A stretch of 64,000 nt of DNA, taken from a virus. Position 1 is the stretch's first letter. Each line of letters opens with the position of its first letter. A program made the translations under genes and the position numbers. Of this stretch, positions 4,076 to 55,607 are shown one piece after another. A model generated the notes under the pieces. It saw only the letters and a list, made by a program, of their open reading frames with translations, was not told the origin of the DNA and made no database searches. The stretch spans positions 1-64,000 of IMG/VR virus record IMGVR_UViG_3300037258_000145; one strand, 5' to 3'.

Positions 4076-4410
4076 GCTGCGTTCCATCTCATGTAATAGG
4101 TGAAGGTGCTGGAGGTGTTGCCGCTGTTCCAACTGATGTTCTGCGCGCTTCCGTTGGTCATCGTAGCCCGCATCGATATCCGGACCACCCAATGACCCTC
4201 GGCGTTCCGCTCGACTAGTCCCGAGACATACTGACCGGTGACCTTGGAACACGCCTTCCAGCACAACTTGCAGATCAAGGGAGTTGCATCCGGGTGACGG
4301 CGACAGGTCCAGTGCGGGCCCTTGACGTGACGACCACAGTAGGTGATCCCATCTCGGGCGTCACGCTCCAGGTGAGGAACACCGCACTTGCGAGTGTGAC
4401 CTTGGCTCAC
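4072..4410 (-). CDS. zinc-binding small protein
   Basis: A 112-residue protein. The first half has several Cys/His pairs (CGVPH, CGRH, CRRH, CKLCWKAC), consistent with one or two zinc sites; the second half is a beta-rich domain (HWVVRISMRATM...). GTG start overlaps the upstream stop by 4 nt and its stop overlaps the next start. Family not recognised. Confidence 0.6.
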   Translation of the reverse strand: MSQGHTRKCGVPHLERDARDGITYCGRHVKGPHWTCRRHPDATPLICKLCWKACSKVTGQYVSGLVERNAEGHWVVRISMRATMTNGSAQNISWNSGNTSSTFTYYMRWNAA

Positions 4411-4598
4411 AGGTCGTACCTCGGCTTCGCTGTCATCCAGCGCTCCTCAACGCCGATAGTGGTGGAACTCACCGAAGTGACCGGACCAACCGCGGCCTCA
4501 GTCTCAAGGCTACGGGAGCGAGGACCGGCCGAGGCGAAACCCATCGGCCATCCCTTCCTCGGCTTCTTGGGCTTGGTGCTCTTCTTGGACTTTTTCAC
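4407..4598 (-). CDS. small basic protein
   Basis: A 63-residue protein with a lysine-rich N-terminus (KKSKKSTKPKKPRKGW) typical of a nucleic-acid-binding or disordered tail. GTGA overlaps at both ends place it in the same coupled string. No domain recognised. Confidence 0.5.
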   Translation of the reverse strand: MKKSKKSTKPKKPRKGWPMGFASAGPRSRSLETEAAVGPVTSVSSTTIGVEERWMTAKPRYDL

Positions 4599-4843
4599 GT
4601 CGCCCTTTCTGTGAGCTTCAGATCTGCCAACCGGTCCAACACTGCCAGTCGCTCGGCCACCTGAGGGTGCAAGGTGCCGTCGTGAGCGCGCAGATGGGTT
4701 CGAAGTTCAGCAGCCGACGCTTCCCAGTCCTGCACTGCTTCGCCGATGCTGTGACCGAGCCCGTACATGGCGCCTTCGGAATCAGCAAAGAGCCAGTCGC
4801 CATCTTCGTCCATTTCAAGGGTGAAAGTGATGGGGTAGCTCAC
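4595..4843 (-). CDS. HicB-like small protein
   Basis: An 82-residue protein. The strand pattern FTLEMDEDGDWLFADS followed by GHSIGEAVQDWEASAAELRTHL resembles HicB antitoxins and related RNase H-like mini-domains (beta hairpin, then helix). No HicA toxin is adjacent and no DNA-binding tail is visible, so an independent phage role is likely. GTG start overlaps the upstream stop. Confidence 0.5.
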   Translation of the reverse strand: MSYPITFTLEMDEDGDWLFADSEGAMYGLGHSIGEAVQDWEASAAELRTHLRAHDGTLHPQVAERLAVLDRLADLKLTERAT

Positions 4844-5208
4844 AGGTGCTCCCGGTAGATGTCTTGGATGAGGTGGACGATGGCGGCTTGGACATCGAAC
4901 GGGCGATCATTGCCCTTGTCAATGATTTGCACCAGGCCTACCAAGTGGCCGGCGTGCGGTCGGTCCCACAGCTTGTCGGGCTGGTACGCCTTCAGCACTT
5001 CGGTGAGCTTGGCTTGGGGACAGGCCGCGTAGACCGTCTTGGTACCTGGGTCGTCGGCGCCCTTGTGGTTGACCAAGAACCAGCAGCCTCCGAGAAGAGA
5101 GCCGAGCTGGTCGATCACTACCGGGCCTTTGATGATGCCTACGGCGGGGTCGGTGCCGGCGCGGACGCGGGCCATCTGGAGGAGTTGTTCGTGCTCAGTG
5201 CGGGGCAT
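4840..5208 (-). CDS. hypothetical protein
   Basis: A 122-residue alpha/beta protein with no recognised motif; KGPVVIDQLGSLLGGCWFLVNHKG suggests a beta-rich core. Its ATG overlaps the stop of the 48-residue zinc-ribbon gene (TGATG) and its stop overlaps the HicB-like start. Confidence 0.55.
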   Translation of the reverse strand: MPRTEHEQLLQMARVRAGTDPAVGIIKGPVVIDQLGSLLGGCWFLVNHKGADDPGTKTVYAACPQAKLTEVLKAYQPDKLWDRPHAGHLVGLVQIIDKGNDRPFDVQAAIVHLIQDIYREHL

Positions 5209-5354
5209 CAGGGGGCGGTCTCAGGAGCAACGATCTCGTTGTCAGCTACGTACTTGGTGATCTTGCCAGTGTGGTTGCAGAACCGACAAGCTCGGCGGGC
5301 CGCTCGATTGAGGTTCTCACACTCCGGGCAGTCGACCTCAATGGCGACGCTCAT
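5208..5354 (-). CDS. 48-residue zinc-ribbon protein
   Basis: A short gene: ATG AGC GTC GCC start, CPEC at residues 9-12 and CRFC at 23-26, spaced like a DnaJ-type or treble-clef zinc ribbon. Its stop overlaps the next ATG (TGATG). The R-family palindrome lies directly upstream. Probably a structural mini-zinc-finger. Confidence 0.6.
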   Translation of the reverse strand: MSVAIEVDCPECENLNRAARRACRFCNHTGKITKYVADNEIVAPETAP

Positions 5355-5358
5355 GGCT

Positions 5359-5386
5359 CAATACGCGCGGTCACCGCGCGCTTTCA
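5359..5386. repeat. R-family palindrome, copy 1
   Basis: Core CGCGCGGTCACCGCGCG at 5364-5380, flanked by CAATA on the left and CTTTCA on the right. It sits between the minor tail gene and the 48-residue gene. Confidence 0.85.
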
Positions 5387-5404
5387 ACTATCACGCAAGG
5401 CAGC

Positions 5405-6571
5405 TTAGCCGACCACTCCAGCCCATCCGGTAATTCGTCGGCCCGTGATAGTGGTTGTGTCCCCCGGAAAGAACGCGTGCACGATCGTATCCACGGCCAC
5501 CATGGCGGCGTCTAAGCCAGCGGCTTGGCGGGTCACCTGGATCATCTGACCCGACCTGACTCCCCAGCCTGCGGGCGGGGTGCAGGTGACGATGACCGGT
5601 TCGTCAGCTCCGAGCCCCAGGTACAGGGCGCAGGTGGCGTCGGCTTGGGCTTGGGCCTGAGAGGCGATCAGGGTGTCCTGGGTGTAGTCCAGGATGTAGC
5701 CGAAGGTGCCGACGTAGCTTGACGAGGCCGGGTTGTCGTCGAGGGCCGTGAAGGTGACCACCGAGTTACCCGGTCCTACCCCGTCGCGCTGGTATACGTT
5801 CGGCACATCGGCGTCGGTGAAGGTGTGCTCCACCTCGGTCATGGTGCAGTTGACGCCCTCGGTGAAGTACCAGTCGATCTCTTGGGTACGGGGGTCGGGG
5901 GGCATCTGGAGGTAGTACTTGGCGTCCGAGCCCTGGTAAAGCTCCACGCCCACCGCGGGTGCCCACTCCGTCGCCATCTTCGTCCATGGCTCGTCTCCGG
6001 GGTTGAAGGCAATAGCCGGGGTGGGCCATGTGATGTTGGCGAAGTTCGACAGGTCGGCGTCGGGTATCCAGTACGTGAGCAGATCGGCAAACGCCCATGA
6101 CCAGTACGTCCCTGCCGATACGGCCCATGCCGAATCAAGGGCGATGCGGGTCGCCAACCAACTCTCGTCCTGGCCGGTTATCTCCACCTCGCGCGTCGCC
6201 CCGGTGTCTTTGGAGTCACCGACCTGGACGATGAGCTTGCCAAGCTGCCACCCGCCCGCCACAACCAGGATCGTGTACCCCGACGTCGCCCCGGTGGCCA
6301 GTAACGACTGAGCATTGGACGGGGACAGAGCGCCGGTCGGGTCGGCCACGGTCATGTCACAGGAGCGCCGGTTGGCTTGGGTGCGGTCGTCGGTGAAGGT
6401 GGAGCCCTGCAAGATGTTGAGGGTCTGGGCCAGGTTCCCATACCGGTCGAACATGGTGATGACTACCGCCGGCGCTGGCTCCGGTAACGGCGGGATGGGT
6501 GGCGGAGGCGGAGGTGGGCTCGACACCACAGCGACCGGCATGGTCGTGGGTAGGCGGGAGGGAAGGGGCAC
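5405..6571 (-). CDS. minor tail / baseplate protein (DUF5047-like)
   Basis: A 388-residue protein. After a proline run (residues ~20-30) comes a segment with DDRTQANRRSCDMTVADPTGAL, the strand pattern of the DUF5047-type tail proteins of actinophages, then an AWAFADLLTYW region and a C-terminal beta domain. It lies directly downstream of the large LamG-containing minor tail protein, the usual place for baseplate hub components. The family assignment is from recall of motif pattern, not a search. Confidence 0.6.
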   Translation of the reverse strand: MPLPSRLPTTMPVAVVSSPPPPPPPIPPLPEPAPAVVITMFDRYGNLAQTLNILQGSTFTDDRTQANRRSCDMTVADPTGALSPSNAQSLLATGATSGYTILVVAGGWQLGKLIVQVGDSKDTGATREVEITGQDESWLATRIALDSAWAVSAGTYWSWAFADLLTYWIPDADLSNFANITWPTPAIAFNPGDEPWTKMATEWAPAVGVELYQGSDAKYYLQMPPDPRTQEIDWYFTEGVNCTMTEVEHTFTDADVPNVYQRDGVGPGNSVVTFTALDDNPASSSYVGTFGYILDYTQDTLIASQAQAQADATCALYLGLGADEPVIVTCTPPAGWGVRSGQMIQVTRQAAGLDAAMVAVDTIVHAFFPGDTTTITGRRITGWAGVVG

Positions 6572-6572
6572 G

Positions 6573-9500
6573 TTACGGCCGAGCTATTTGCACGTACTTG
6601 AGAGTGGTCTTGCGCATGGCCGACTCCACGCCAGTGAACTCGGTTTCGATCTCACGGGCGCCGGTTATCCAGACGTAGAGACTGTCCCCGAAGGGCCCCT
6701 GAAGCAGAAGAGCTCGGGACGGGATCAGCAGGTTCAGCAGGTTATAGATGTCGTACGGCGCGCCGTCGGGGCCTTCCATGGTGGTGAAGGTGATCGAGCC
6801 CGTGGCACCCCGCATCCCGTCTGAGACGATCACCTCGTAGGTCCCTCCGAGCGTGACGTAATCGCTCGAGACCTCGAGCGGTGCCCGGGGGTAGGGCGGG
6901 TCAAGCTGGACCTGAGCGTTATAGACCGGGTTGATCGGGTCCTTCAGCCACCAGTAACCGTAAAAGGCCGGACAGGTGCAGTTGACCACGGATGACCATG
7001 CCGATACCAGACCGCCCGAGGTGATCTGACGCACCCGGTAGCTAATGACCGTGCCGACGGCGGCCATATCGTAGTCGTCCAGGGTGGTCTCGATCGATGA
7101 GCCTGGTAGTGCCGCTCCCCACGTGCCCATCCCGAAGGCCCCGCCGCCCCACAGGGCCGAACCCGCTGTCCCTGAGGACCCAACCGGTACCGCCGAGCCA
7201 TTGCGGACGTCGGCCCATGTGCTCCCCGCGTTCAGGGAGTACTGGAACTCGGCCGTGTTGCCCACTGTGGCCCCTGTGAGGGCTAGGACGATGTCCAGGC
7301 CTGCATAGGTCCCAAGTGTCGCTGTGGCGGTCAGGGAGGGCGTAGCAGGGGCCGTGTAGACGATCGTGAATGTAGCGAAGTCGTCGTACCCGTTGGTAGC
7401 CCCTGAGGTCTCGGTAACGACCACGTAGACGTCATAGGTGCCCTGAGGCAGGTACAGGCCGCTGACGGTCGCTGAGGACGCCTGCCCGGCCGTGATGGGC
7501 GTCGACCATGTCGGGGTTGTGGTGGCCGGATCCCAACCGGTTGGCCCGATGAGGACCTGGTACGTGGTCTGGATGCCGCCCATCGTCCCGGCTGTGAACG
7601 TCCATTGGATCGTCGGCTGAGATGTCCCCACGACGTCATCGAGGTGGTACAGGCAGCCGGTTGAAACGTCCGAGGTGAACGGAATCGTGGCGGGCGTGTA
7701 GTTGCTGGCGAACGTGTAGCGCACGGAGTCGGAAATCCGCACTTCGTCAACGACGCTGGTCGCTACCGTGTCGGCAAAAAAGACCACCAGCGCCGTGGAC
7801 CCGCTTGGAGCCTTAGCCGATGTCATGGCATAGTCGGTGTCGTAGGTGCCGTTGACCCAAACCGCCACGTCGGCGCCGTTGTAACTCACGGCTACGTTAT
7901 TGGCGACACCGGCAGTGAGTAGATGCGAACCCGAGTTGAGGAAGTGCGAGGTCCCGCCCGAGTCGTACCAAATAACCTGGACGGCGCCTGAGGGATCGAT
8001 GACGATCTGCCACTCACCAGACCGTCCGATGACATAGGGCGTGGTCGCAAACGACGGCGCTTCGTATATGAACTCGCAAGTCCAGGCAGAGCCGGTGACA
8101 GCGCCCTGGGCGTTGCCAGAGCCGACAGGACCGGAGAGAAAGCTCCCGCTGGAGACGGCCTGCGCGGCCGAGCCAAAAGCCGTGCCTGCTGGTGACGGCA
8201 CCAATCCAACCGTTCCAGTCGCAGTGAGGGTCTGACCGCTCGGTCCAGAGTCGATGAACGACAACGGCGTGGCCTCGATCGACGCCGAGGGTGAGACGGC
8301 CAAGAACATCTTGAGCGGGAACGGGACCTGAGAAACGATGAGGTTGGGATCTCGGGTTAGCGTCCACCAGTAGTAGGTCGTCCCGGCGGGACCGAGGACG
8401 TCGGCCGGGATGGTCAACGATTGCGTCCCGCCTCCCATTACAGGAACGGCGTCCAGGTGGTACAGACAGCCGGTATTGGCGTTGCTCACAAACGGGGCTG
8501 TAGCGGGCGTGTAGGAGGTGCTGTAGCGGGCGGTGTCAGAGACGCGCACCTCGGCCATATAGCCTGTCGTCCCCGTCGTGGACGGTGAGGGGGCACCGAG
8601 GATCATGGACTGGCTCGACGGGGCTCGGGCCGTGCTGAGCGATAGAGTGGCCACCGAGGCGCCATTGAGCCACAGTGTCCACGTCGTGCCGGACCACGTG
8701 AGGGCGACGGCGTAGTTGGCTCCAGCGGTGAGGGCGACGCCCCCGAAGGCATGACCGATACCACTGGCGTCGAACACCTCGATGGTGAGATTGCCACCCG
8801 TTAGGTAAATGGCCCACTCCTGATGGGCGCTGGTATCCCTTGAAACCAAAAAGGTCGCTGTCGTCAGATCGGCCGCGCTCGGCTGGTACAAAAACTCGAC
8901 AGTGAACGCGGAACCGACGACGGCACCCTGAGCATTGGTACTGCCTGGTGGTCCGACTAGAGCGCTGTGACCGACAAAGTGAGCGCAGGCTGTAAACCCT
9001 TCGGTGATGGCGTACTGGACACCGACCACGGTGCCGACCTGGAAACTGAACGTTTGGCCGCTCGGGCCGGAATCAGCTAGCGAAAGGTCATCCAGCCACA
9101 CTTCCCACTGCGACAGCGCCTCGCCGTTCCAGTAGATGCCGGGCTGGCCCTGTCCGGTACCCAAGAGATAGGCGAAGGCGACCTGGTTCTCAGCTGGGTC
9201 GACGGTCCACTCAAAGGTCTGAGGTACCGCAGGGTTGATCACAGACCCGAACCCGGGCGGTCCTAAAACCGGAGTCGCAGGTTGGTAGACCGGCAGTGTA
9301 AATACGCCACTCATGCAAAAGGGCGTGGTGGCGCTCGCTATGGCCCCAAGGACCACATCGACTTCGCTGATGGTGGGGTTCGGCGGGCAGACAACCGACG
9401 TGCTCGAAGTGTCAAGACCGGTGGCAATCGTCTGGGTGAAAAAGTCCCATGTGAGGGTGGGAGGTGACGTTAGGCCAATTGTCATCCCCAGACGTATCAC

Positions 9501-25642: not shown

Positions 25643-26425
25643 TCAGTGCTGCCACACCCGGACGTAGTCGACCATCATCACCGAAGGTGAGACGATCGGC
25701 GGGCTCAATGTGGACGAGCTGCCCAGGTTGAGGATCATGTACTCAAGCGAGCCGATGATGCCAGGAGCACCTATCCCGGCCGAGGTGAAACCGCCAATCA
25801 GCACGCCGTCGTAGTAGAAGTTGACAAAGCCGGGCTCCCAGTCACAAGCGAAGGTGTGCCAGCCGCCGGCATAGGTCCCACCGGAACCGGTCAAAGGACC
25901 GTAGGCGCCGTTGGCGTTGTTGTAGTGGGCTTTGGCGATACCACCAATGCCCTCCATGATGTCGATCTCACCGGCGCTCTCGTCCGAGGAGTAGCCGTGC
26001 AGCCAGAAGGAGGGCCAGTTGTCGATGACCCCTGTCGTGTCCGCTAGCCAGATGCGCGCCTCAAAGAACCCGTAGGACGCGGCGAAGCAGGGAGGGGTGG
26101 TCCAGGGGTAGGCGTTGGCCAATGTGCAAACAAGACCGGAGGTGTAGTCAAAGGTCCCCTTGGAACTCGTATTCGTCTCGGTGATCATGGTCAGAGTCAT
26201 CACGCTGTCGGCGACGCTGACCTGAGGGGAATAGTAAACGCACTCATCGAGCACGTTGATAGGTCCAGTAACGGTGCTGTCGTTGCCGAAGAAGGCAGGC
26301 GTCCACATCGTCTCGTTGAGAGATGAGCCGTTGAACTCGTCGTCAAAGATCAGGTGCCACGGACCGGGGATGTCACCCGTTGGCATCGGAGCCGCGGTGG
26401 CGGCCATAAGGCGAGCGAATTGCAT
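25643..26425 (-). CDS. GH16-family beta-glucanase-like tail enzyme
   Basis: A 260-residue protein. The catalytic signature GEIDIMEGIG (about residues 150-159) matches the GH16 E-x-D-x-x-E motif with both carboxylates present. Other family landmarks are FDDEFNGSSLNETMW at the start, WPSFWLHGY before the motif, and WHTFACDWEPGFVNFYYDG after it. GH16 enzymes cleave beta-1,3 and beta-1,3-1,4 glucans and related polymers. No signal peptide is seen; the N-terminal MQFARLMAA is shared with the 29455-30126 protein and may be a docking tag. Probably a virion depolymerase. Confidence 0.85.
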   Translation of the reverse strand: MQFARLMAATAAPMPTGDIPGPWHLIFDDEFNGSSLNETMWTPAFFGNDSTVTGPINVLDECVYYSPQVSVADSVMTLTMITETNTSSKGTFDYTSGLVCTLANAYPWTTPPCFAASYGFFEARIWLADTTGVIDNWPSFWLHGYSSDESAGEIDIMEGIGGIAKAHYNNANGAYGPLTGSGGTYAGGWHTFACDWEPGFVNFYYDGVLIGGFTSAGIGAPGIIGSLEYMILNLGSSSTLSPPIVSPSVMMVDYVRVWQH

Positions 26426-26438
26426 TTAGAGCGGGGGT

Positions 26439-27011
26439 CTACGCTGCCTCAAGGTATTGGCCAACGATGGCGCTCGTCTGGGTCCCGGTGGCGCTCAGGA
26501 GCCGGTAATAGCCTGCTGGGACCTTGCACCGGAAGGTCATGATGCCGACCGAAGTGGAGCCGGTGACAAGAGTCGTCTGGGCTGGCGTGGCTGTCTTACC
26601 CACCCCGTCCGCAACCACTAGCGATGTGTTGGCGGTCACGTCCACGTAGACCGTGCACCACACGTCATAGCTCAGGATGTTCTGCCACGCGGTGCCGAGA
26701 ACTAAGTTCCCGAGGGCGGTTTGGATGGTGGCTGAAGTCGGCGGGGCTGAGGCGACGGTACCGGGAACAGTCGGAGGGGTGGCGTTGATGCCCAGTTCAA
26801 GCTGAGCCCCAAGAGCGGCGGTGATAGCGGCATTGACGAAGGCGGTATTGGCACCAGCCTGCGAGTTGTCCCCAGCGGGTTGGGTTGGGACCTTTGGTGC
26901 CGGGATCGTCGGTGTATTCAGCGGTGCGACCAGATGCCTCCTTGGGGCATAGCCTACAGCCTGACCGCCCCAGGTCCCGGTACCCCATGAGGAGCTACCC
27001 CACTGGCTCAC
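26439..27011 (-). CDS. tail-region protein with two possible starts
   Basis: A 190-residue protein from GTG at 27011, which overlaps the upstream stop (GTGA); its first 20 residues carry a Trp/Gly pattern (SQWGSSSWGTGTWGG) common at tail-protein termini. An internal AGGAGGCATCTG puts an in-frame CTG at 26933 (164 residues, (M)VAPLNTPTIPAP), with TAGGCT 8 nt before the box. Both forms may be made. The C-terminal ~110 residues are a beta domain ending TQTSAIVGQYLEAA. Confidence 0.6.
   Translation of the reverse strand: MSQWGSSSWGTGTWGGQAVGYAPRRHLVAPLNTPTIPAPKVPTQPAGDNSQAGANTAFVNAAITAALGAQLELGINATPPTVPGTVASAPPTSATIQTALGNLVLGTAWQNILSYDVWCTVYVDVTANTSLVVADGVGKTATPAQTTLVTGSTSVGIMTFRCKVPAGYYRLLSATGTQTSAIVGQYLEAA
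26934..26956 (-). promoter_or_regulatory. intragenic promoter abutting AGGAGGCATCTG
   Basis: Minus-strand TAGGCT (26951-26956), 8 nt spacer, AGGAGGCATCTG (26931-26942), inside the 26439-27011 gene. Confidence 0.5.
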
Positions 27012-27112
27012 CGGGCTTGGTGCTTACGCCTTCGCCACACCCCGTAGATGATCGACAGGCCCAACCAGACTTCGGCGACGTCGCGGTAACTGTCCGATAG
27101 GAAGTGGATCAC
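27008..27112 (-). CDS. 34-residue peptide
   Basis: GTG ATC CAC start overlaps the upstream stop (GTGA) and its stop overlaps the next GTG (GTGA), so both ends are coupled. The sequence has a hydrophobic middle (VAEVWLGLSIIYGVW) and a basic end (RRRKHQAR), fitting a small membrane-associated peptide. Function unknown. Confidence 0.5.
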   Translation of the reverse strand: MIHFLSDSYRDVAEVWLGLSIIYGVWRRRKHQAR

Positions 27113-29442
27113 AGGCCCGTACTCCCGCCGTCTTGGCTACCACAGGTCGACCCCTGCCAGTTGGCGTAGGTCTGAGCGGTTCCCTGTCCCAGGCACGCCA
27201 CAGCCCATGTCCCGGTGTATACGTTGTTGCTCCAGAGGTTGCCGTAGTGCAGGACCACGTTGTTTTGCGTAGCGCTCCCGGCATAGGGTGACCATCCGCA
27301 CAAGTTCGGAGCACCCCCGGAACAACTCCCTGAGTTGCCCCACAAGGCTTGGTATCCGCAGAGGTTGGTCGACGCTGGAGGAGAGCCCGTTGGCGCCACG
27401 CAACCAGCAAGCGAAGTCGGCGCCATATTGAACACATCAGATTGCGCGGTTACGTTCTGACTGGCCCAGGTGCAGGCATTGAAATAGGCGTTACCGTGCG
27501 ACGTGCCATTCAGGTTGGCCACCCCACACCCCCCGGCGGCGCCCACACCTATCTCCACGCTGGTCCCGGTACCAACCGCGGGCGTTGTGAGCGTGCAGGC
27601 ATTAGCGCTGGCGCACGTCGAAATGGTGTCGCCCGCCGTGATGCACGCGCTTGATCCTCCGCCGCATGTCGACGCCGCCCACACGTAGTCTCCGTTAGCT
27701 GGTGTTGTGCCCGCGCCGGTCTGGATGTTCTTGAAGCCGGCAGCCGAGGTGATAGCCGTCGTACCGTTCGTTACCCCGTCAGCGACACCGAGACCGGCGT
27801 TGTCGTAGTACGTGGACGGGTTGACCAGCGGGCAGTTGAGTTGATAGGGCGAGCCACAGAACCGGTTGCGGTCCTGGTAAACATCGATGCCATCCCAGTT
27901 GTTGGTGAAAACGTCGCCCTCGATATTGGCAGTGTTGGCAAGCGAAGAGACGAGACCGGACGAGCCGCTGATCGTGGTGCCACCGGAGGACGAGATGTAA
28001 ATGGCCGGTGTGTAGTTGGAGTAGATCGTGCTACTGCCATCGATCGGGCCCTCACCGTCGGCGCAGGACGCCGAGTGGCCATTGAAGGTGGACGACGAGC
28101 AGGACGGCCAAGAGAAGTCATTCGAGGTCCCGTTGCCCTCGAATAGGTTGTTCAGCACCTGGACGTTGGCGCTGGCCTCGAAGTCGAGACCATAGCCGAA
28201 ATTACCCTGGATGACGTTGTAGTTGACGTCCAAGCCCGCGTTGTTAAAGTCGAACCAGGTGCCCACGTAGTAGTTAACGTCGACCCAGTTACCCAGGGCT
28301 TGGCACTGCGAGACCGTGTCGGACCCATCTGGCCCGCTCCCGGTGGCGCACGTGCCTGGCGCCCCAAAGGTGACGTTGGTAGCCCACAGCAGCTTGCCAC
28401 CGCCCGAGTTACCGCCTCCACCATCAGCGTTGTCGGGGTAGTAGCCGATCCCGTTCTGAGTAATCTCGTTGGACTGGATGGTGATGTCATCGGCACCGCC
28501 GGCCGAATTGGGGTCGGGGCAATGCGTGCCGTCCCCGGTGCAGGAGACGTTGTAACCGCCTTGATTGTTCTCGGTGATGCAGTTGCCGGTCAGAACGTCA
28601 CCGGTCCCAAGATTGACCCCGTACCCGTACGCCTCGTCACCCTGGTAGCTGCTCGTCCCGTAATTGGGGCCGATCGTGTTGTGCGCGACGGTCCAGTCCG
28701 GCGTGTCGTTTGAGTTGATCAGCGCGTTGTTGTTGCCGGTGGCCCATCCGGTCACGGTCAGGTACTCAACCGTCACACCTGTCGCCGAGGTCGAGCCGTC
28801 TATGGCGTAACCGTTGGCCGTGCTGGTGCCTTCGAGCGTGGCCTCAGGGGGGCTGTCCCCGGAGTTGTAACCACCCTCCAACACGTCGCCCGTAAAGACC
28901 GTGAACCCCGTGGAGTTGGTGCTGAAGGTGTGGTTGCCAGGAGCCAGCCAGTAGCTTGTGCTCGGCGCGAGCGTGACTGAGGAATTGTCGCCCGCTGCGA
29001 TGGTCGTGAAGCCACCAGGGGCCGACGTAGGGCCGTGGAGCCCCGACGTAGCGCAGACCGCAGTCCCCGCCGTTGGAGCGTTGCCTCCTGGCGTCGTCGT
29101 GGTTGTGGTGGAGCTGCTGGTGGTACTTGAGCTGGTGGTCGTGCCCGACGTGCTCTGCGAATAGTTCGGGGGCCAAAAGACCGAGTTGAGCGACCAGGTG
29201 ATGACAAGGACGCTGAAGGCGATGCCGATTACTGCCTCGGTAACCCTCAGGATGGCCTGGTTCCGCTTGTGGCGCAGGGTGAGGGCGGCGACTACCTGCT
29301 GGCGCGCATGGAGCATGATGGCACCGCATTCGAGACAGCCCATCCACCACTCGGTCGGGTCGTGACCGTGGATGCAGCGCTCTACGACAGCGGGGGGCGG
29401 AGCCTGCTGGGGTGCAGCCCAGGTCGGGCGTTTTCTGTTCAC
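27109..29442 (-). CDS. membrane-anchored beta-helix protein with cytoplasmic zinc motif
   Basis: A 777-residue protein with layout unlike a virion fibre: residues 1-60 hold CIHGH...CLEC (likely zinc site), residues ~65-90 a single membrane helix (VIGIAFSVLVITWSLNSVFW), then a Ser/Thr-only linker (~95-115). A ~650-residue right-handed beta-helix follows with many cysteines (CATSG, CTGDGTHCPD, SCADGEG) that could form disulfides outside the cell. Expected topology is N-in, helix displayed outside. It sits within the fibre block. It might modify or mask the host surface after infection; this is inference. Confidence 0.7.
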   Translation of the reverse strand: MNRKRPTWAAPQQAPPPAVVERCIHGHDPTEWWMGCLECGAIMLHARQQVVAALTLRHKRNQAILRVTEAVIGIAFSVLVITWSLNSVFWPPNYSQSTSGTTTSSSTTSSSTTTTTTPGGNAPTAGTAVCATSGLHGPTSAPGGFTTIAAGDNSSVTLAPSTSYWLAPGNHTFSTNSTGFTVFTGDVLEGGYNSGDSPPEATLEGTSTANGYAIDGSTSATGVTVEYLTVTGWATGNNNALINSNDTPDWTVAHNTIGPNYGTSSYQGDEAYGYGVNLGTGDVLTGNCITENNQGGYNVSCTGDGTHCPDPNSAGGADDITIQSNEITQNGIGYYPDNADGGGGNSGGGKLLWATNVTFGAPGTCATGSGPDGSDTVSQCQALGNWVDVNYYVGTWFDFNNAGLDVNYNVIQGNFGYGLDFEASANVQVLNNLFEGNGTSNDFSWPSCSSSTFNGHSASCADGEGPIDGSSTIYSNYTPAIYISSSGGTTISGSSGLVSSLANTANIEGDVFTNNWDGIDVYQDRNRFCGSPYQLNCPLVNPSTYYDNAGLGVADGVTNGTTAITSAAGFKNIQTGAGTTPANGDYVWAASTCGGGSSACITAGDTISTCASANACTLTTPAVGTGTSVEIGVGAAGGCGVANLNGTSHGNAYFNACTWASQNVTAQSDVFNMAPTSLAGCVAPTGSPPASTNLCGYQALWGNSGSCSGGAPNLCGWSPYAGSATQNNVVLHYGNLWSNNVYTGTWAVACLGQGTAQTYANWQGSTCGSQDGGSTGL

Positions 29443-29454
29443 GCTTCAAAGTCC

Positions 29455-30126
29455 TCAGGAGTGGGCAAGTTCTATCTCCGTGATCGAGGCAAAGCCACCG
29501 GATGTCGGGCTGACCACGACGTTAGCGGTACCGGTCGACGTGACAACCCCGTACCAGATCTCTCCGTCTTGGCCGCCGTTGGTGGCTGTCTGCGCGGCTA
29601 CCGCTTTGGCGAACCCGCCTGAGACGAGCGAACAGGTGACACCGGTTACGGCTGTCTCGGCTCCCATGGAAATCATGACCACCACCAGGTTGCCGATGGT
29701 GTGAGTGGTGATCGACAGGGACGCGAACCCGGACCCGTCCCCGCTGGCTACACCAACCTCGCTGATGGTCTTGGCGGGGTAGAAGAACAGCGCCGCGATA
29801 ACGCCGCAGTTGTCCGAGCCGTTGTTGTTGTTCGCCGCCGTCGGCGTCGTGACGGACGAAATGCTTGTGTTGTAACAGTAATAGTTGGTGGTTGCCCCGC
29901 CAGGATTGCCGTAGGTGTAGCCCGAGGTCGAACCGCCTGAGTTGGTGCCATAGCTCCAGAAGTTCAGGCCGACATAAGCCTCGTTGGAGTTAGCCGGCGT
30001 CAGGCTGGGGAAGCTGAAAACAGATCCGCTGACCGGTGCGTCGGCATTGGCTCCGGTGGTGTCGACCTGCCAGCCGGTAGCGGGGGGCGCCGAGACCGCT
30101 GCGGCCAGGAGCCGGGCGAATTGCAT
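29455..30126 (-). CDS. beta-sandwich tail-associated protein with MQFARL start
   Basis: A 223-residue protein. ATG overlaps the upstream stop (TGATG). The N-terminus MQFARLLAAAVSAPPATG matches that of the GH16 gene (MQFARLMAATAAPMPTG). The rest is a lectin-like beta sandwich (FPSLTPANSNEAYVGLNFW, ...GNLVVVMISMGAETAVTG) similar in style to 22381-23025. Probably attached to the tail as an accessory glycan binder. Confidence 0.6.
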   Translation of the reverse strand: MQFARLLAAAVSAPPATGWQVDTTGANADAPVSGSVFSFPSLTPANSNEAYVGLNFWSYGTNSGGSTSGYTYGNPGGATTNYYCYNTSISSVTTPTAANNNNGSDNCGVIAALFFYPAKTISEVGVASGDGSGFASLSITTHTIGNLVVVMISMGAETAVTGVTCSLVSGGFAKAVAAQTATNGGQDGEIWYGVVTSTGTANVVVSPTSGGFASITEIELAHS

Positions 30127-31730
30127 CAGGCGTCGAGCAGCGCCGAGGCGATCCAGGCGCTCCGGTGCACGGACCAAGCCAGGACCAGGGTGTCAGTTTT
30201 GCCGTTGGTAGCCGTGAAGGTGGGAGCCGATCCGCCCACCCACGCCAGGGTCGCGCCGGTAAAAGTCCACGACGCCGCTGAGCCCGAGGCGGGTTGGTGG
30301 AGCATCGCTGCTATCTGGTCTCCTGGGTAGCCGGCGGGCACGGTGATGGCGCAGGAGTCGCCCGCTGTACCTAGAAGCTCAGTGAGCTTGTTGCGGACCA
30401 AGGTACCTGTGGTAGTAACGGTGGCCTGGGATGGGATCAGCGGTTGGGTCTCGGTGATCTGCCAGGTGTTGGCTGCTACCCGAACGAGCGTGGCCTTCTC
30501 GACTCCACCGGTCAGGGCCACGATGACCGAGGTAGAGGTGGAACCGTTCAGCGATGCCGTGCCGTCGGTGGTGAACGTGATGGTACCGACACCGGACAGG
30601 CCAGTAACCACGATGATGTCAGCGGTGCCCGATGCCCACGCCGTGCCGAACGTCGAATCGTCGGTGACGGTGATCGCGCAGCCCGAGGAGTCGGAGCACT
30701 CGATGAGAGCCCCGACGTCGGTGTGGCTCAGGTTGTGCGTGGCACCGGCCACAGCCACAATGGCAGTCAGGCCCGTGCCCTCGATGGTGACAATGCCGTT
30801 AGCGCCCGCGGTCGTGACTACCGGCTTGATCCCTGCGGTACCGATGAACTCAACGTTTCCAGTGGCGTTGGCCGACCCGTCGGTGATCTCCGAGACACCC
30901 GAGGACCCGCCGCCGCCCTCCACCCAGGTCTGAGACGAGGTGTCGATGGTGATACCGGCCGTCGGGGTAGCGAGGACCCAGTAGTACCCGGCGTAGGTAC
31001 CGAGCTTGACGTGACAGACGCGCCCGCCGTTCACCACGGCCCCCGACGGGAACTCAGTGATACGGGTTAGCGCGCTGGAGGCGCCGTTCCATTGCCATAG
31101 CCCGTTCTGACTGGCCGTGGACTGCACCGTGAGTAGGAGCAGATCGCCGGCGGCCAGCGAGTAGCCGTTGATCGTGGCGCCGGGAGCGGACAGGGAAGCG
31201 ATGTTCGACGTCGCCACCGTGGCCGCGGGGGTCAGCTCGGGGACGTGCAGGCCGAAGCGGTTGGTGCCGATGTTGGCGAAGATGAGGGTCTTGTCGACCA
31301 GGTTGGACGATGCAAGCGACGACGCCCCGCCTGATACGTATATCTCGTTGATGGCGATGTACCCCGAAGGACAGGCGGCCCGGACGGGAGGATTGCCGTT
31401 GCCAGGTGTCCAGTTGACGACGGAGCACTGCGCGCCCTGGACGATCGAAAGCGTGCCGCTGGGGTTGGAGACGACAAGGTCCTTGCGGTCGAACGTGGAG
31501 GCTGTGGCGCACGTCACGTTGCCGCTAGACCACGAGACGGGGCTCCAGTTCGATATGCCCGTACCGGCCACCACAGCCACCGTCAGACCGCTTACGACGC
31601 TGACGCTGCCACCCGTCAGTACCCCGGTACCGAAGATGGCGTTGACGAGCAGATCGATGTCGTTGACGTCGTCGGCTGCTTGACCGGCGTAGGTCGGAGA
31701 GTCCTGGGCGTTGTAGAGCTTTAGGGCCAG
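30126..31730 (-). CDS. tail fibre protein (CTG start)
   Basis: A 534-residue protein when begun at the CTG of AGGAGGCATCTG; the first ordinary start, GTG at 31580, would discard 50 well-behaved residues (ALKLYNAQDSPTYAGQAADDVNDID). The N-terminal acidic helix plus LLVNAIFG repeat looks like a tail attachment region. The C-terminal ~200 residues have the HNLSHTDVGALIECSDSSG and GTITFTTDGTASLNG pattern of phage fibre beta domains. Confidence 0.7.
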   Translation of the reverse strand: MALKLYNAQDSPTYAGQAADDVNDIDLLVNAIFGTGVLTGGSVSVVSGLTVAVVAGTGISNWSPVSWSSGNVTCATASTFDRKDLVVSNPSGTLSIVQGAQCSVVNWTPGNGNPPVRAACPSGYIAINEIYVSGGASSLASSNLVDKTLIFANIGTNRFGLHVPELTPAATVATSNIASLSAPGATINGYSLAAGDLLLLTVQSTASQNGLWQWNGASSALTRITEFPSGAVVNGGRVCHVKLGTYAGYYWVLATPTAGITIDTSSQTWVEGGGGSSGVSEITDGSANATGNVEFIGTAGIKPVVTTAGANGIVTIEGTGLTAIVAVAGATHNLSHTDVGALIECSDSSGCAITVTDDSTFGTAWASGTADIIVVTGLSGVGTITFTTDGTASLNGSTSTSVIVALTGGVEKATLVRVAANTWQITETQPLIPSQATVTTTGTLVRNKLTELLGTAGDSCAITVPAGYPGDQIAAMLHQPASGSAASWTFTGATLAWVGGSAPTFTATNGKTDTLVLAWSVHRSAWIASALLDA

Positions 31731-49687: not shown

Positions 49688-50281
49688 TCAGGACGCGCAT
49701 ACGGCGTAGGCCGTGATAGTGGCGCTCTGACCGGGCTCCAGGACGCCGAAGAACGTCACGCTCCATCCCGTAGACGGGCTACCCGTCGGCACTGAACCGG
49801 TCATGGGAAGAGGCTCAGCAGGTGGCCGGGCGTAGGTCATGGTCCCGCCTCCGCCTAAGGCGTAGTCACCGGACGGGCAGAACGTCGACTCGATCCATGT
49901 CCCGTTGGTCCCCTCAGGGACCGGCAAGGTGTTGGAGACCACGAAAGAACTCGCTATGGACGCTGGAGCTATCACTGTGACCGGGCCGGGTGTCCCCGGT
50001 AGTCCTTCAGGTCCTTCAGGCCCTGACGCACCCTGAGGGCCTTGTGGACCGGTCAGGCCAGGTTGTCCGGCTGGGCCTTGGGCGTTGACGGGCTCGGACT
50101 TGGTACCTGTTGGGCACTTGCCCTCTTTGGCGCTGTAGACCAGACCAGCCTTGACACAGACGTGGTAGACGGGCGCGGGCGTCGATCCGAAGGCCAGGAC
50201 ACTGCCACCTACGACCAGCCCGAAGATGAGGACGACAACCAAGAAGGGAGCGATGATGCCGGGACTGCTGCGAGTGCTCAT
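49688..50281 (-). CDS. membrane-anchored protein with collagen-like segment
   Basis: A 197-residue protein: single N-terminal membrane helix (residues ~10-32, IIAPFLVVVLIFGLVVGGSVLAF), a short Cys-bearing region, about a dozen Gly-X-Y triplets (residues ~69-101, GPAGQPGLTGPQGPQG...) and a beta domain with a cysteine pair. Topology predicts export of the collagen and beta parts. ATG is 6 nt behind TACTCT. It may be displayed on the infected cell or be lysis/exclusion related. Confidence 0.6.
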   Translation of the reverse strand: MSTRSSPGIIAPFLVVVLIFGLVVGGSVLAFGSTPAPVYHVCVKAGLVYSAKEGKCPTGTKSEPVNAQGPAGQPGLTGPQGPQGASGPEGPEGLPGTPGPVTVIAPASIASSFVVSNTLPVPEGTNGTWIESTFCPSGDYALGGGGTMTYARPPAEPLPMTGSVPTGSPSTGWSVTFFGVLEPGQSATITAYAVCAS

Positions 50282-51545: not shown

Positions 51546-54500
51546 TTACTTGGTACCAGGTAATTCTTCCCGCACATCCTCACGTGGCACGTCGTGATTT
51601 TTTGTGTTGTACTGCATCTGGCGCACCTTCTGTGGCCAGTCTGCGTCTCCGCTGCCCGGGGTCCCCACCCAGGCAGCGGAGGTGGTGTGCCCTGCCTTTT
51701 GGAGCGCTTCGGTGCGGTAGTACCCGTCAGCGATGACCATCTTCGGCCCCGCGCCCGCCACTAAGACAATGGGCTTGGGCTGCTTGCCGCCCTTGATCTC
51801 TTCCACCTTTTCCTCGACACGGGCGGGGTCGCGCCCGCCGGGGCGGTGGGCCATTTCGATGTCGTCGAGGGCGACGGCGGGCTTTAGCTGCCACTCGCAA
51901 CCCTTCACCCAGTCCAGGTCGACCTTGTCGTAGTGCTTGGCCAGGTACTTGTAGACGTGGTCAGCGGCATCGTCGTCGTCGTCGGCCTTACCGTAGGCGC
52001 CGGGCTTCACCTGTCCTTCAGGCCAGGGAGCGGGCGCTTTGGTAGCGGTGTAGCCGGGAGGGAGGCGGCGGTTCAGGAGGGATTCGAACGACTCCTCGTC
52101 GGACTTCAGCGCCGGCGCGGCCAGGGTGTGCATGATCTGAGGCAAGCTCGCCATCATTTCGGGACGTAGTGGGAGCTGAGCCAGGTGGTTGGGGTCGAAC
52201 CACGCCACGGCCTCGAAGCTGTCGCCGTCGGGATTGTTCACCTCGCGCCATTCGCCCTGGTTGACATCCACGCTCGCCTCATGGGCTGTCTCGACCACGA
52301 AGCCCTGATAGATGCCGCTCGTCCAGGAGCCGAGCCACTTGGCGTCTGCCGGTAGGAAGGTCCCTACCTCTTCGCCCCATTCCCTCGCCGCGCCTTGCTC
52401 GGGTGATTCGCCCGCCTCAAGATGTCCCCCTGGCAATTCCCACATGCCGGCGCAGGGGTCAGAGGGGTCGTTGGCCCGCTGGAGCAGTAGGACTCGCCCG
52501 GAGTCGAAGGCACGGAGCAAAGCGCCAGCACAGGTGACCTGAGGCGTGGCTGTGGTCATCGCTGGGCCTTCGGAATCGGGGCCCTGTGCCTTGGCGGCGT
52601 TGGCTTCGTCGAGGCGTTGCTGGCCCCACTGCTTGGGGTGCTTGGCTGGCTTCTTGCCGCACTGGAGGCAGCGCACTCCTGAGCCGACGTAGGCATGGCG
52701 TTGGGTGCGCTCGGCGACGTTGTTCGGTGCTACCTGGCCCGGTTCGGGGCCTGAGAGGTCGAAGGGGACAAAGCCAGTGTCCAGGGGTGCTCCGACGCTG
52801 ATGTCCTTGGGAGTCGCGCGCGTGCGACTTTTGCTCATCCATGCGGGATCGGTGCCCTGCGTGGTCTGGCGGGCGATCGAGGGGCTTTGGGTCTGAGCTA
52901 GGACCGAGTCGCCCTGCTCATAACTGAGCGAGCAGGCGCAGGCGGGCCCTCCGAGGCACAGGGTATCTTGGCCGTAGTCCCCGTCTCCAGGGAATCCGGG
53001 CAGATCAGCGGGGCTAAACGTCTGGCCGTCGAGAGCCAGGCAGTTCTCACAATTTTCGGCGTCACCGAGGGTCCAGCGGATCACACTGTTGGTGCCATCG
53101 GCATCCGGCGCCGCGGCGATGTAGCCCTGCTCGTACGGCGCCGTGAGCCCATCGGCGTAAGATTGGACCCTGGTAGCGGTCGACTGCGCCCCGCTCGGTG
53201 CGTTGACCGCGCCTGCGACAACTCCACCGACTACGTCGAGAGCTAGGTCCTTCAGGTACGGCATCATGCTCATGGCCCGGGTTTGAGCTAGGGCGGGGGC
53301 ACTCTCGGGACTGGGTGGGCTGGCAGCGTCCCCCCAGTCACCAGCCCCGCTACCGGCACCAGCGGTATATGCGTCCTGGTATGCCTGAGCCAGGATGGGG
53401 ATGGCGGCCGGCGCGAACTGGGCGGGCTTTAGCTTGTGATCGGTGAGCTTGTGCACCAGGGCGGTCAGACCGGCCATCAGGGAGGCTCTGGGCTTGGCCA
53501 GAGCGGTCTCCCGGTGGTCTAGCCGTCTCTGGGCCTTAGCGGCCTTCAGGGCGGCCGTGGCGGGGTCCTGCTCGCCTTTGGCGGCCTTCAGGGCGGCAGG
53601 GCGCAGTGCTCGGGGCTCGAAGCTCTCCAGCGACTTGCCGCGGGCCAGATAGCGGCGCAGGGCGCGCAGTTCGTTTGCCTTCTCTTTTTGGCTGGCCGAT
53701 TCGTGCGGCTCGGCATCTCCCGCCGCCGTCAGGCCTTGGTCGGCGGTGCTCTTGTCGGGTTCAGGAGCATTGCCGTTGGCGGGCGGTTTGGGTAGAGCAG
53801 GAGGCTTGTTGCCGGGCTTAGGCGGCGCTGGCGGCTTGCTAGCGCCGCCCTCAGGTGGCAAGGGTCGGGAGTTGGCGTCGATCGGGGCCGGACCTGAGCC
53901 GGGCGGAGGGGGCGGAGTTTGGCCCATGGGGATAACGCCGGTCGGGAGGAATTGGAGCGGCACCATCGACCAAGGCTCGTTGTAGGTCTTCAGGTCCAAC
54001 GCGATGCACGCTTCGTCGATCGAGGTGAGAGACGCCTTGACGAGTGCAACTTGGTCGGTGATGCGGTCCGACAAGGTCTCGCCCTGGTCCATGACTCCCC
54101 AGGACCACGCCATGTCCGTCTGGCCGAACTTGCCCCGGATCAGGGGATCGAACAGGCCCGTTTTCAGCTTCTTGGCCAGGGGGATGGCACTGCGGCGCGT
54201 CGTCTGGTCGGCGGCTTGGGTGGCGGCGTTCTTGGAGGCCGCCGGGCTCATCATCGAAGAGAGCTTGGGGGTGATGCCGAGGTCGCTGATCGACAAGCCG
54301 AACGGCATGGCGATGAGTGAGGTAAACCACGTGTCGATGTCGTCGGAGAGGTCGGCCGGCTTTTGGGGACTGACTTTTGCTCCAGGCGGTGTGACAATGA
54401 CTTGATGCATGTTGGCGAGGTCGCCACCGAGTTGGTTGATCGCCTGCATGAGCTGGCGGGCTTCCTCGGGCGTAGCGATCGACTCGCCGGGGTCCATGAA

Positions 54501-55541
54501 AACCGCCGGCAGCGACCCGTTTCGGAACCACTCACTTTGCCAAGTCTGACGGGCCAGCATCAGCGATATGGCCATGATGCCCTGTTCTGTTGGCCCCATG
54601 CCGTAAGGCGTCCAAGTCCTCGGGTTGGACTTGAAGTAGATCATCTCCGACCCGATCCACTCCTCACCCGTGGTGGTCAATTGGTCTAGCAAGGGGTTTA
54701 GCGCCTTGTAATCCTCGATCGTGGCGTCAGGACCGAGGTTGATGATGTCCATGAGGTCGACGCGGGGCACGCCCCAAAGCACCTGTTGATAGGCCACGGC
54801 TGGCTGCTTGGGTCGGGTCCCCCACTCGTCCATCAGGGGCTTTATCAAACTGGCATCTTGTAGGCACAGAGCACCCACGCTTGAGCCAGCCGGACCGTTC
54901 CCCTTCCCACCCGCTGGCTGGAGATAGATGGCCACAGCATCCAGTACAAGATTGTCTTCGAAGAGGGCATTGAGCCAGAGATCGCCTGAGTCGTACTGGT
55001 CAGGGTCAGGGTTCGCAAAGAACTCCATCAGCTCGCCCTTGCGACTCTCCCAGTCGGCTTTCTTGGAGGGATTTCCCTGCATCCCTGCTTGAGCGGCGGG
55101 CGTCGGGACTATGTCGTAGTCGGCGACGATAAGGTCCGCTTTTCTTATTTCTATGCACGTCCGACCAATAGCGGGTATTTCGGCTAAATCGCGCAGCTGA
55201 GCGAAGTTTGCGAGCTTAATTCCTTCGGTGCCGGGCTGGCCGATCGGCAAATTCCAACCGACCATCGGCTGAAGTCGCCTCGGGCGGGGCCGTCCGTTCG
55301 GCTCCTCCGGTATGTCGATGGGCACCGGCAGGATCGGTGACAGCGGGGAGAAGTCGCCGCTCGTGAACGTCTGCATGGGGCGCGGCAGCCCCAGCAATCC
55401 CTCGTATGCCTGACTGGCCCAGCCCGCGGCCTGGCCTGGCAGTTGGTACATGTTCGCCCGAGGACTATTGGGCTGGATGCCGTTGGCCCCGACGTCACCA
55501 GGACGAGCAGAATTGATAACGGCCCTAGCCAAGGGGTTCAC
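51546..55541 (-). CDS. portal-MuF-Nudix-ParB-like fusion protein
   Basis: A 1331-residue protein (1345 if TTG at 55583 is used). Residues ~60-560: portal protein (IPAIGRTCIEIRKADLIVADYD, ...MLARQTWQSEWFRNGSLPAVFM). ~600-900: MuF-like minor head domain with NCENCLALDGQTFSP and a Cys pair. ~990-1130: Nudix hydrolase with a complete Nudix box (GGHLEAGESPEQGAAREWGEEVG). ~1215-1330: ParB/sulfiredoxin-like domain (VALDDIEMAHR, MVIADGYYRTEALQ). GTG at 55541 preferred because it overlaps the stop of a CTG leader frame. S-palindrome copy 4 is in frame. Confidence 0.8.
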   Translation of the reverse strand: MNPLARAVINSARPGDVGANGIQPNSPRANMYQLPGQAAGWASQAYEGLLGLPRPMQTFTSGDFSPLSPILPVPIDIPEEPNGRPRPRRLQPMVGWNLPIGQPGTEGIKLANFAQLRDLAEIPAIGRTCIEIRKADLIVADYDIVPTPAAQAGMQGNPSKKADWESRKGELMEFFANPDPDQYDSGDLWLNALFEDNLVLDAVAIYLQPAGGKGNGPAGSSVGALCLQDASLIKPLMDEWGTRPKQPAVAYQQVLWGVPRVDLMDIINLGPDATIEDYKALNPLLDQLTTTGEEWIGSEMIYFKSNPRTWTPYGMGPTEQGIMAISLMLARQTWQSEWFRNGSLPAVFMDPGESIATPEEARQLMQAINQLGGDLANMHQVIVTPPGAKVSPQKPADLSDDIDTWFTSLIAMPFGLSISDLGITPKLSSMMSPAASKNAATQAADQTTRRSAIPLAKKLKTGLFDPLIRGKFGQTDMAWSWGVMDQGETLSDRITDQVALVKASLTSIDEACIALDLKTYNEPWSMVPLQFLPTGVIPMGQTPPPPPGSGPAPIDANSRPLPPEGGASKPPAPPKPGNKPPALPKPPANGNAPEPDKSTADQGLTAAGDAEPHESASQKEKANELRALRRYLARGKSLESFEPRALRPAALKAAKGEQDPATAALKAAKAQRRLDHRETALAKPRASLMAGLTALVHKLTDHKLKPAQFAPAAIPILAQAYQDAYTAGAGSGAGDWGDAASPPSPESAPALAQTRAMSMMPYLKDLALDVVGGVVAGAVNAPSGAQSTATRVQSYADGLTAPYEQGYIAAAPDADGTNSVIRWTLGDAENCENCLALDGQTFSPADLPGFPGDGDYGQDTLCLGGPACACSLSYEQGDSVLAQTQSPSIARQTTQGTDPAWMSKSRTRATPKDISVGAPLDTGFVPFDLSGPEPGQVAPNNVAERTQRHAYVGSGVRCLQCGKKPAKHPKQWGQQRLDEANAAKAQGPDSEGPAMTTATPQVTCAGALLRAFDSGRVLLLQRANDPSDPCAGMWELPGGHLEAGESPEQGAAREWGEEVGTFLPADAKWLGSWTSGIYQGFVVETAHEASVDVNQGEWREVNNPDGDSFEAVAWFDPNHLAQLPLRPEMMASLPQIMHTLAAPALKSDEESFESLLNRRLPPGYTATKAPAPWPEGQVKPGAYGKADDDDDAADHVYKYLAKHYDKVDLDWVKGCEWQLKPAVALDDIEMAHRPGGRDPARVEEKVEEIKGGKQPKPIVLVAGAGPKMVIADGYYRTEALQKAGHTTSAAWVGTPGSGDADWPQKVRQMQYNTKNHDVPREDVREELPGTK
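52812..52829. repeat. S-family palindrome, copy 4
   Basis: In frame inside the portal fusion, encoding KSRTRAT. Flank identity with copy 1 extends to about 26 bp. Confidence 0.8.
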
Positions 55542-55573
55542 GAGCCGAGCTTTCGTGTCGAGGTGGAGTTCAG
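55538..55573 (-). CDS. possible CTG-started 11-residue leader of the portal gene
   Basis: GGGGACATCTG contains the CATCTG box; CTG AAC TCC begins an 11-codon frame whose stop overlaps the portal GTG at 55541 (GTGA). This explains why CATCTG is not in frame with the portal here. Confidence 0.35.
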   Translation of the reverse strand: MNSTSTRKLGS

Positions 55574-55580
55574 ATGTCCC

Positions 55581-55607
55581 CAATACGCGCGGTCACCGCG
55601 CGCATTC
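55581..55607. repeat. R-family palindrome, copy 6
   Basis: Core at 55585-55601, immediately upstream of the portal gene; the right flank is CATTC instead of CTTTC. Confidence 0.85.

Follow-up and report, generated by a model that had tools for sequence, protein, structure and literature searches.

A predicted membrane-anchored beta-helix protein in the fibre region of a phage belongs to an exported bacterial family with a conserved putative catalytic pair

Introduction

The polysaccharide depolymerases known from phages are virion spikes or free enzymes. Tailspike depolymerases such as those of Sf6, CBA120, and Dettilon are right-handed beta-helices encoded among tail genes. A bacterial glycosidase with a tailspike-like fold, WceF, is encoded in the exopolysaccharide (EPS) cluster of Pantoea stewartii and acts on the polymer of its own producer (PMC7949094). 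Phages also place exclusion proteins on the host surface, as exemplified by Ltp of phage TP-J34 (PMC3952083). In the GH120 beta-xylosidase XylC, Asp382 is the nucleophile and Glu405 is the acid/base, and mutation of the matching residues in homologues abolishes activity (PMC8954004). In the open-access literature, we came across no account of a phage beta-helix anchored in a membrane as reported here and no study of the bacterial beta-helix family to which it belongs.

This work concerns one gene product, hereafter the target, encoded in the window, which is the whole stretch of 64,000 nucleotides that was analysed (positions 1 to 64,000 of virus record IMGVR_UViG_3300037258_000145). The target shares with the tailspikes a right-handed beta-helix (Z about 21-23) and a location among tail genes, but it has a predicted transmembrane anchor, shows no virion-binding head domain that Pfam, PHROG, or NCBIfam recognise, and is homologous to an exported bacterial family. 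It resembles WceF in belonging to a family of exported beta-helices that are often encoded in EPS clusters and, as proposed here, in acting on the polysaccharide of the cell itself; WceF, however, forms a trimer, is exported by the Tat route, and has a P22-like head domain, whereas the target has a predicted transmembrane anchor, and no homology between the two is claimed. Like the Ltp-type lipoproteins, the target is phage-encoded and is predicted to be exposed on the host cell surface, although those proteins are lipoproteins from the lysogeny modules of temperate phages, and here too no homology is claimed. The similarity to XylC covers the central beta-helix, where Asp382 and Glu405 fall on D398 and E422, and is seen via the family profile only, since the target alone gives no match in the PDB. 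Streptomyces sp. KN37 WP_320592324.1 and its kin share with the target full-length homology including cysteines, an export N-terminus, D398, E422, K350, and the C-terminal motif W..N.Y.G.W...QDxGST. The target is about 29-37% identical to these proteins and differs from them in its long, predicted cytoplasmic N-terminus with a Cys/His pattern, its location in a phage fibre string, and the loss of C343/C345 and several near-invariant residues.

Gene context of the target

The target open reading frame (ORF) is real, with 777 codons and a GTG start read from the sequence. The coordinates of the target, its parts, and its neighbours are shown in Table 1. The gene had been described in an earlier note as sitting among fibres, and it does lie in a fibre/GH16 string on the minus strand. 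The 34-aa ORF that follows it has 4-nt GTGA overlaps with both the target stop and the start of the next gene. EPS biosynthesis genes were not seen near the target; fibre genes and the GH16 gene are found there instead.

Table 1. Positions of the target, its predicted parts, and neighbouring features in the window.
Feature	Position	Strand	Basis
Target, predicted membrane-anchored beta-helix protein, 777 aa	27109..29442	-	ORF and full-length homologues
Basic N-terminus, residues 1-62, predicted cytoplasmic	29257..29442	-	Charge count; topology inferred
CIHGHDPTEWWMGCLEC, residues 23-39, possible metal site	29326..29376	-	No relatives found
Predicted transmembrane helix, residues 63-88	29179..29256	-	Within single predicted helix 29-88
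Ser/Thr-rich linker, residues 89-128	29059..29178	-	Sequence; pLDDT <50 for 89-123
Right-handed beta-helix ectodomain, residues 129-775	27118..29058	-	Homology, alignments, model
K350	28393..28395	-	Invariant, 97/97 family copies
D398, putative nucleophile	28249..28251	-	Aligns with nucleophile Asp382 of GH120 XylC
E422, putative acid/base	28177..28179	-	Aligns with acid/base Glu405 of GH120 XylC
Shine-Dalgarno GAGGA	29452..29456	-	9 nt 5' of target GTG; overlaps stop of upstream gene; read from sequence
Upstream fibre-module gene	29455..30177	-	12 nt before target
Possible membrane microprotein, 34 aa, VIHFLSDSYRDVAEVWLGLSIIYGVWRRRKHQAR	27008..27112	-	Sequence; membrane role inferred
GH16-family glycoside hydrolase in the gene string of the target	25643..26425	-	PF00722, E 5.8e-11

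Three further features of the window were observed. The peptide MQFARL[ML]AA is common to the GH16 protein and the upstream fibre-module protein, at or near the start of both, and is perhaps a docking tag. An ORF of 1345 aa at 51546..55583 on the minus strand carries a portal domain (PF04860, residues 312-443) fused to a NUDIX domain (PF00293, E 1.2e-19, residues 1019-1142), which is an unusual fusion. A protein of 197 aa at 49688..50281 on the minus strand has a hydrophobic segment at its N-terminus (Kyte-Doolittle mean 2.79) as well as a short run of collagen-like Gly-x-y; it is likely, from these features, a second membrane-anchored surface protein of the phage.

Architecture of the target

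The target has a single hydrophobic segment at about residues 63-88, and its best 19-residue Kyte-Doolittle mean of 2.14 is among the highest of 50 ORFs in the window. Within the first 95 residues, the charges on the N-side of the helix are +8/-4 and there are none on the C-side; nine of the 13 K/R residues of the protein lie within the first 66. This placement fits an N-in/C-out topology. The low K/R content of the target is not in itself evidence of export because most structural proteins of the phage share it. The domain that follows the linker is rich in Gly, Asn, and Cys up to the C-terminus, and 22 of the 25 cysteines of the target are C-terminal of the helix.

The earlier note had read the N-terminus as a cytoplasmic zinc knuckle followed by one membrane helix, a Ser/Thr linker, and a long cysteine-rich beta-helix. 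The helix, the linker, and the beta-helix are all recovered by hydrophobicity, composition, homology, and modelling. The name zinc knuckle is not borne out: a Cys/His pattern is present (C23-x-H25-x-H27-x8-C36-x2-C39), but the canonical CCHC zinc knuckle is CX2CX4HX4C. No relatives of the pattern were found in the phage records, and it is absent from the other phage copies of the beta-helix family. A pattern scan of viral contigs for this motif returned only matches in spurious frames, which were discarded.

The AlphaFold model of the target exhibits a confident beta-helix core, with a mean pLDDT of 62 over the whole protein and 300 residues below 50. The best fold matches are the mannuronan epimerases AlgE6 (Z 25.6) and AlgE4 (Z 25.4), followed by a tailspike, the biofilm lyase RbmB, NosD, PL6 lyases, and more tailspikes. 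The matches are thus mostly beta-helices that act on polysaccharides. A C5-epimerase function of the AlgE/AlgG type was not adopted from the shared fold, as fold alone shows no function.

Bacterial homologs and their export

The target alone gives no match in Pfam, PHROG, or NCBIfam, and phmmer of the target alone against PDB sequences returned nothing. The only tblastn relative in the phage collection is MT835644 (26%, 7e-26). This GenBank record, which is named 'Bacteriophage sp.' and comes from a human faecal source, has the appearance of an exopolysaccharide gene cluster of a bacterium and was rejected as a phage. The family alignment was built from MT835644 and then from plasmid-collection relatives in Nonomuraea and Streptomyces. 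The homology covers about residues 122-775 of the target, which is the full length of the ectodomain including the conserved cysteines, and PF13229 is found in relatives of the target, which supports the beta-helix. The target retains eight of ten family-conserved cysteines; C343 and C345 are both lost.

In the genome scan, 432 encoding stretches passed tblastn and 77 loci were kept. These loci are mainly from Streptomyces, Amycolatopsis, and Nonomuraea, and also from Acidimicrobiaceae, Dyella, and Saccharibacteria. Among 100 hits (loci and window), 48 N-termini carry a lipobox and 47 carry a signal peptide or transmembrane segment; the automatic lipobox scoring is an undercount, as several of the latter rows carry variant lipoboxes. 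Three hits have no hydrophobic N-terminus, two of which are cut at a contig end, and two hits are partial. The family is, judged from these sequences, a large, mainly actinobacterial group of exported and mostly membrane-tethered beta-helix proteins. The target likewise keeps, immediately ahead of the domain, a predicted export/anchor N-terminus that is hydrophobic and positively flanked. Its full layout, with a cytoplasmic stretch, a transmembrane segment, a Gly/Thr-rich linker, and the beta-helix, recurs in a copy from Acidimicrobiaceae (L071). Because nearly all copies are of the export type and L071 shares this layout, an export anchor is a regular trait of the family and not a peculiar addition to a spike. 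The Saccharibacteria copy (L013, 845..3211) also has a C-terminal extension in which Fn3-like and QxW (ricin-B-like) stretches were read by eye; such an extension would fit glycan binding.

The EPS genes beside family members are frequent but not universal. Of the 77 bacterial loci, 59 have an O-antigen-ligase homologue no more than about 8 kb away and 53 have a heparinase/alginate-lyase homologue, both as raw counts; 17 loci have no EPS match. These counts are lower bounds that were obtained with seven reference proteins from a sample rich in Streptomyces. The copies from Nonomuraea, Dyella, Saccharibacteria, and Acidimicrobiaceae are without O-antigen-ligase or heparinase/alginate-lyase neighbours. 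Streptomyces KN37 provides an annotated example of an exopolysaccharide cluster that holds a family member.

Copies in related phages

A single-sequence scan of viral contigs and the two-sequence profiles identified no new relatives. Viral-contig scans with a five-member profile identified copies in three contigs (L089, L091, and L092), and one further viral scan identified no new copies. All three copies have a hydrophobic N-terminus before the domain and lie in the same kind of fibre/glycosidase region. The L089 copy has a tail-fibre ORF (phrog_9017) as its immediate neighbour on one side and the portal (phrog_2662, 1.9e-40) on the other, with an apiosidase-family glycosidase upstream. In L092, an apiosidase-like ORF comes after the copy, and in L091, two such ORFs are downstream of the copy; those of L091 and L092 were identified by their similarity to the L089 protein. 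Possible signal-peptidase sites occur in the three copies, so some of these proteins could be released.

The window portal is 35% identical to the L089 portal (5e-63, over the portal part of the 1345-aa ORF). The window protease matches L091 and L092, the putative capsid protein matches L092, and the tape measure matches L091. Because portal, protease, capsid, or tape-measure genes are shared with the window, these sequence matches place the window, L089, L091, and L092 in one phage group. Neither an integrase nor a resolvase turned up in the phage records, which are possibly incomplete, and lysogenic conversion is therefore unlikely on present data.

The nearest protein to the L089 copy is that of MT835644. 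The nearest proteins to the L091 and L092 copies are from Dyella, Saccharibacteria, and Acidimicrobiaceae, and the window copy has no close protein. In the family tree, the virus label requires at least three changes on starred branches; these changes are gains or losses, and the count includes the contig L088. The window row is a very long branch whose exact place is unsure. The phage copies do not appear to have a single origin in this tree, and uptake of the genes seems to have occurred separately in related phages. We infer that the phage gene derives from a bacterial gene of the EPS type. The contig L088 (149.7 kb) was not counted as a phage, as none of its tested ORFs matched a phage family or a portal; its copy is of the lipobox type and about 67% identical to Nonomuraea.

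Two other observations were made in these contigs. Unrelated fibre-module proteins (L089 4586, L091 11416, L092 4812, and L092 2903 and 6268) have similar short peptides at their C-termini. The peptides are VPFRAGR, VPNRAGRR, and VPVRAGRR, and also VLYSMR; two beta-helix copies with a hydrophobic N-terminus carry such endings, and so do proteins without a transmembrane segment. An overlapping Shine-Dalgarno sequence as the cause of the RAGR(R) endings was rejected because the codons do not spell AGGAGG. In the 78-kb contig L091, glycosyltransferase-like and sugar-nucleotide-epimerase-like ORFs were seen by eye at 4273..7805, a few kb upstream of the beta-helix gene.

Putative active site

The family profile searched against PDB sequences places GH120 XylC (PDB 3vst) first, with an E value of 3.8e-7 and the next match at 0.027. 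The bacteria-only profile again returns XylC (E 4.5e-5). The XylC positions were counted from the printed alignment coordinates, and the same pairing of Asp382 with D398 and of Glu405 with E422 is obtained in both profile alignments. XylC is not among the 50 fold matches listed for the model, and this absence was not counted against the GH120 link. All 97 copies compared, with the target among them, retain D398 and E422. The two acids are 24 residues apart, which is about one rung of the beta-helix, and they would hence be adjacent. The target is probably, by alignment, a retaining glycosidase that uses D398 and E422.

The target differs from the other family members at C343 and C345 and at the near-invariant H388, Y421, Y425, E485, R497, and R658, and the L089 copy likewise departs at 485, 497, and 658. 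Catalysis in the target may therefore be altered, weakened, or lost, or its pocket may have been re-tuned.

Discussion

Computation identified in the window an ORF with anchor features that belongs to an exported bacterial family, retains its putative catalytic pair, and has counterparts in related phages. An anchored protein with its beta-helix facing outward is supported by the export N-termini of nearly all family members and by the hydrophobic N-termini of the copies in three related virus contigs, which lie in a similar genomic region. The earlier note had likened the protein to a displayed surface receptor or adhesin. The architecture and a likely surface location in keeping with the exported family agree with that view; a receptor or adhesin does not fit so well, and an enzyme is likelier because the acids aligned with the catalytic pair of XylC are invariant. 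A role at the surface of the infected cell, including in superinfection, is a good hypothesis.

We propose, with a probability of about 0.5, that the target is a membrane-tethered and likely catalytic glycosidase that trims the surface polysaccharide of the infected cell itself late in infection. It would be made late from the fibre/GH16 gene string as a type II membrane protein, with its N-terminus in the cytoplasm and one helix across the membrane. The flexible Ser/Thr linker would hold the disulfide-rich right-handed beta-helix outside the cell, where it may cut or strip the surface polysaccharide. The receptor would then be lost from the dying cell and its debris, so that progeny and incoming phages would no longer bind. 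The outcome may be easier release and limited superinfection, in a logic comparable to that of a receptor-destroying enzyme.

The main rival is incorporation into the virion, where the target would be a spike-like depolymerase of the tail or capsid and its hydrophobic stretch would dock to the particle or be removed. This rival is kept alive by the C-terminal peptides shared in L089, L091, and L092: the L091 and L092 copies have a Pro-rich C-terminal tail with VPxRAGRR, and VPFRAGR is the ending of a fibre-like L089 protein without a transmembrane segment. The target itself, however, has no C-terminal tag. Its gene is within the fibre string and its fold is also tailspike-like, but its N-terminus holds no recognisable head domain of the virion-binding kind, it shares with the exported relatives a basic N-side followed by a hydrophobic helix and a linker, and its conserved cysteines suit an oxidising compartment. 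We consider virion incorporation unlikely.

The other two readings keep the target at the cell and change what it does there. The earlier note had suggested that the protein may mask the receptor, and a reading near to this takes the beta-helix as a non-catalytic surface lectin that binds the phage receptor at the infected-cell surface and hides it to block superinfection. The near-invariant residues lost in the target agree with it, and phage surface lipoproteins that exclude superinfection are known, such as Ltp (PMC3952083). A pure binder would nevertheless be free to lose D398, E422, and K350, which are kept in 97/97 copies, and we regard a mask as less probable than a virion spike. The least probable of the readings is that the phage copy keeps or adjusts the chain length of the host capsule or biofilm polymer in the manner of WceF, to the benefit of the infected population. 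The bacterial relatives lie within biosynthetic clusters and wceF mutants produce longer stewartan chains (PMC7949094), which would suit such a builder or remodeller of exopolysaccharide, but the phage records give no sign of a temperate life style and the target gene is in the structural region beside GH16.

Beyond the single protein, we suggest tentatively, as a possibility that is itself rather doubtful, that related and apparently non-lysogenic phages keep a slot in the fibre region that repeatedly takes up beta-helix glycosidases of bacterial origin, which would be membrane-tethered and destroy the receptor before lysis. If the proposed glycosidase role is true, a membrane-tethered depolymerase would give a phage a distinct means of controlling the surface of the dying cell, and bacterial surface-polysaccharide functions would have flowed repeatedly into a phage lineage. 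The target would also give a first functional handle on a large bacterial beta-helix family.
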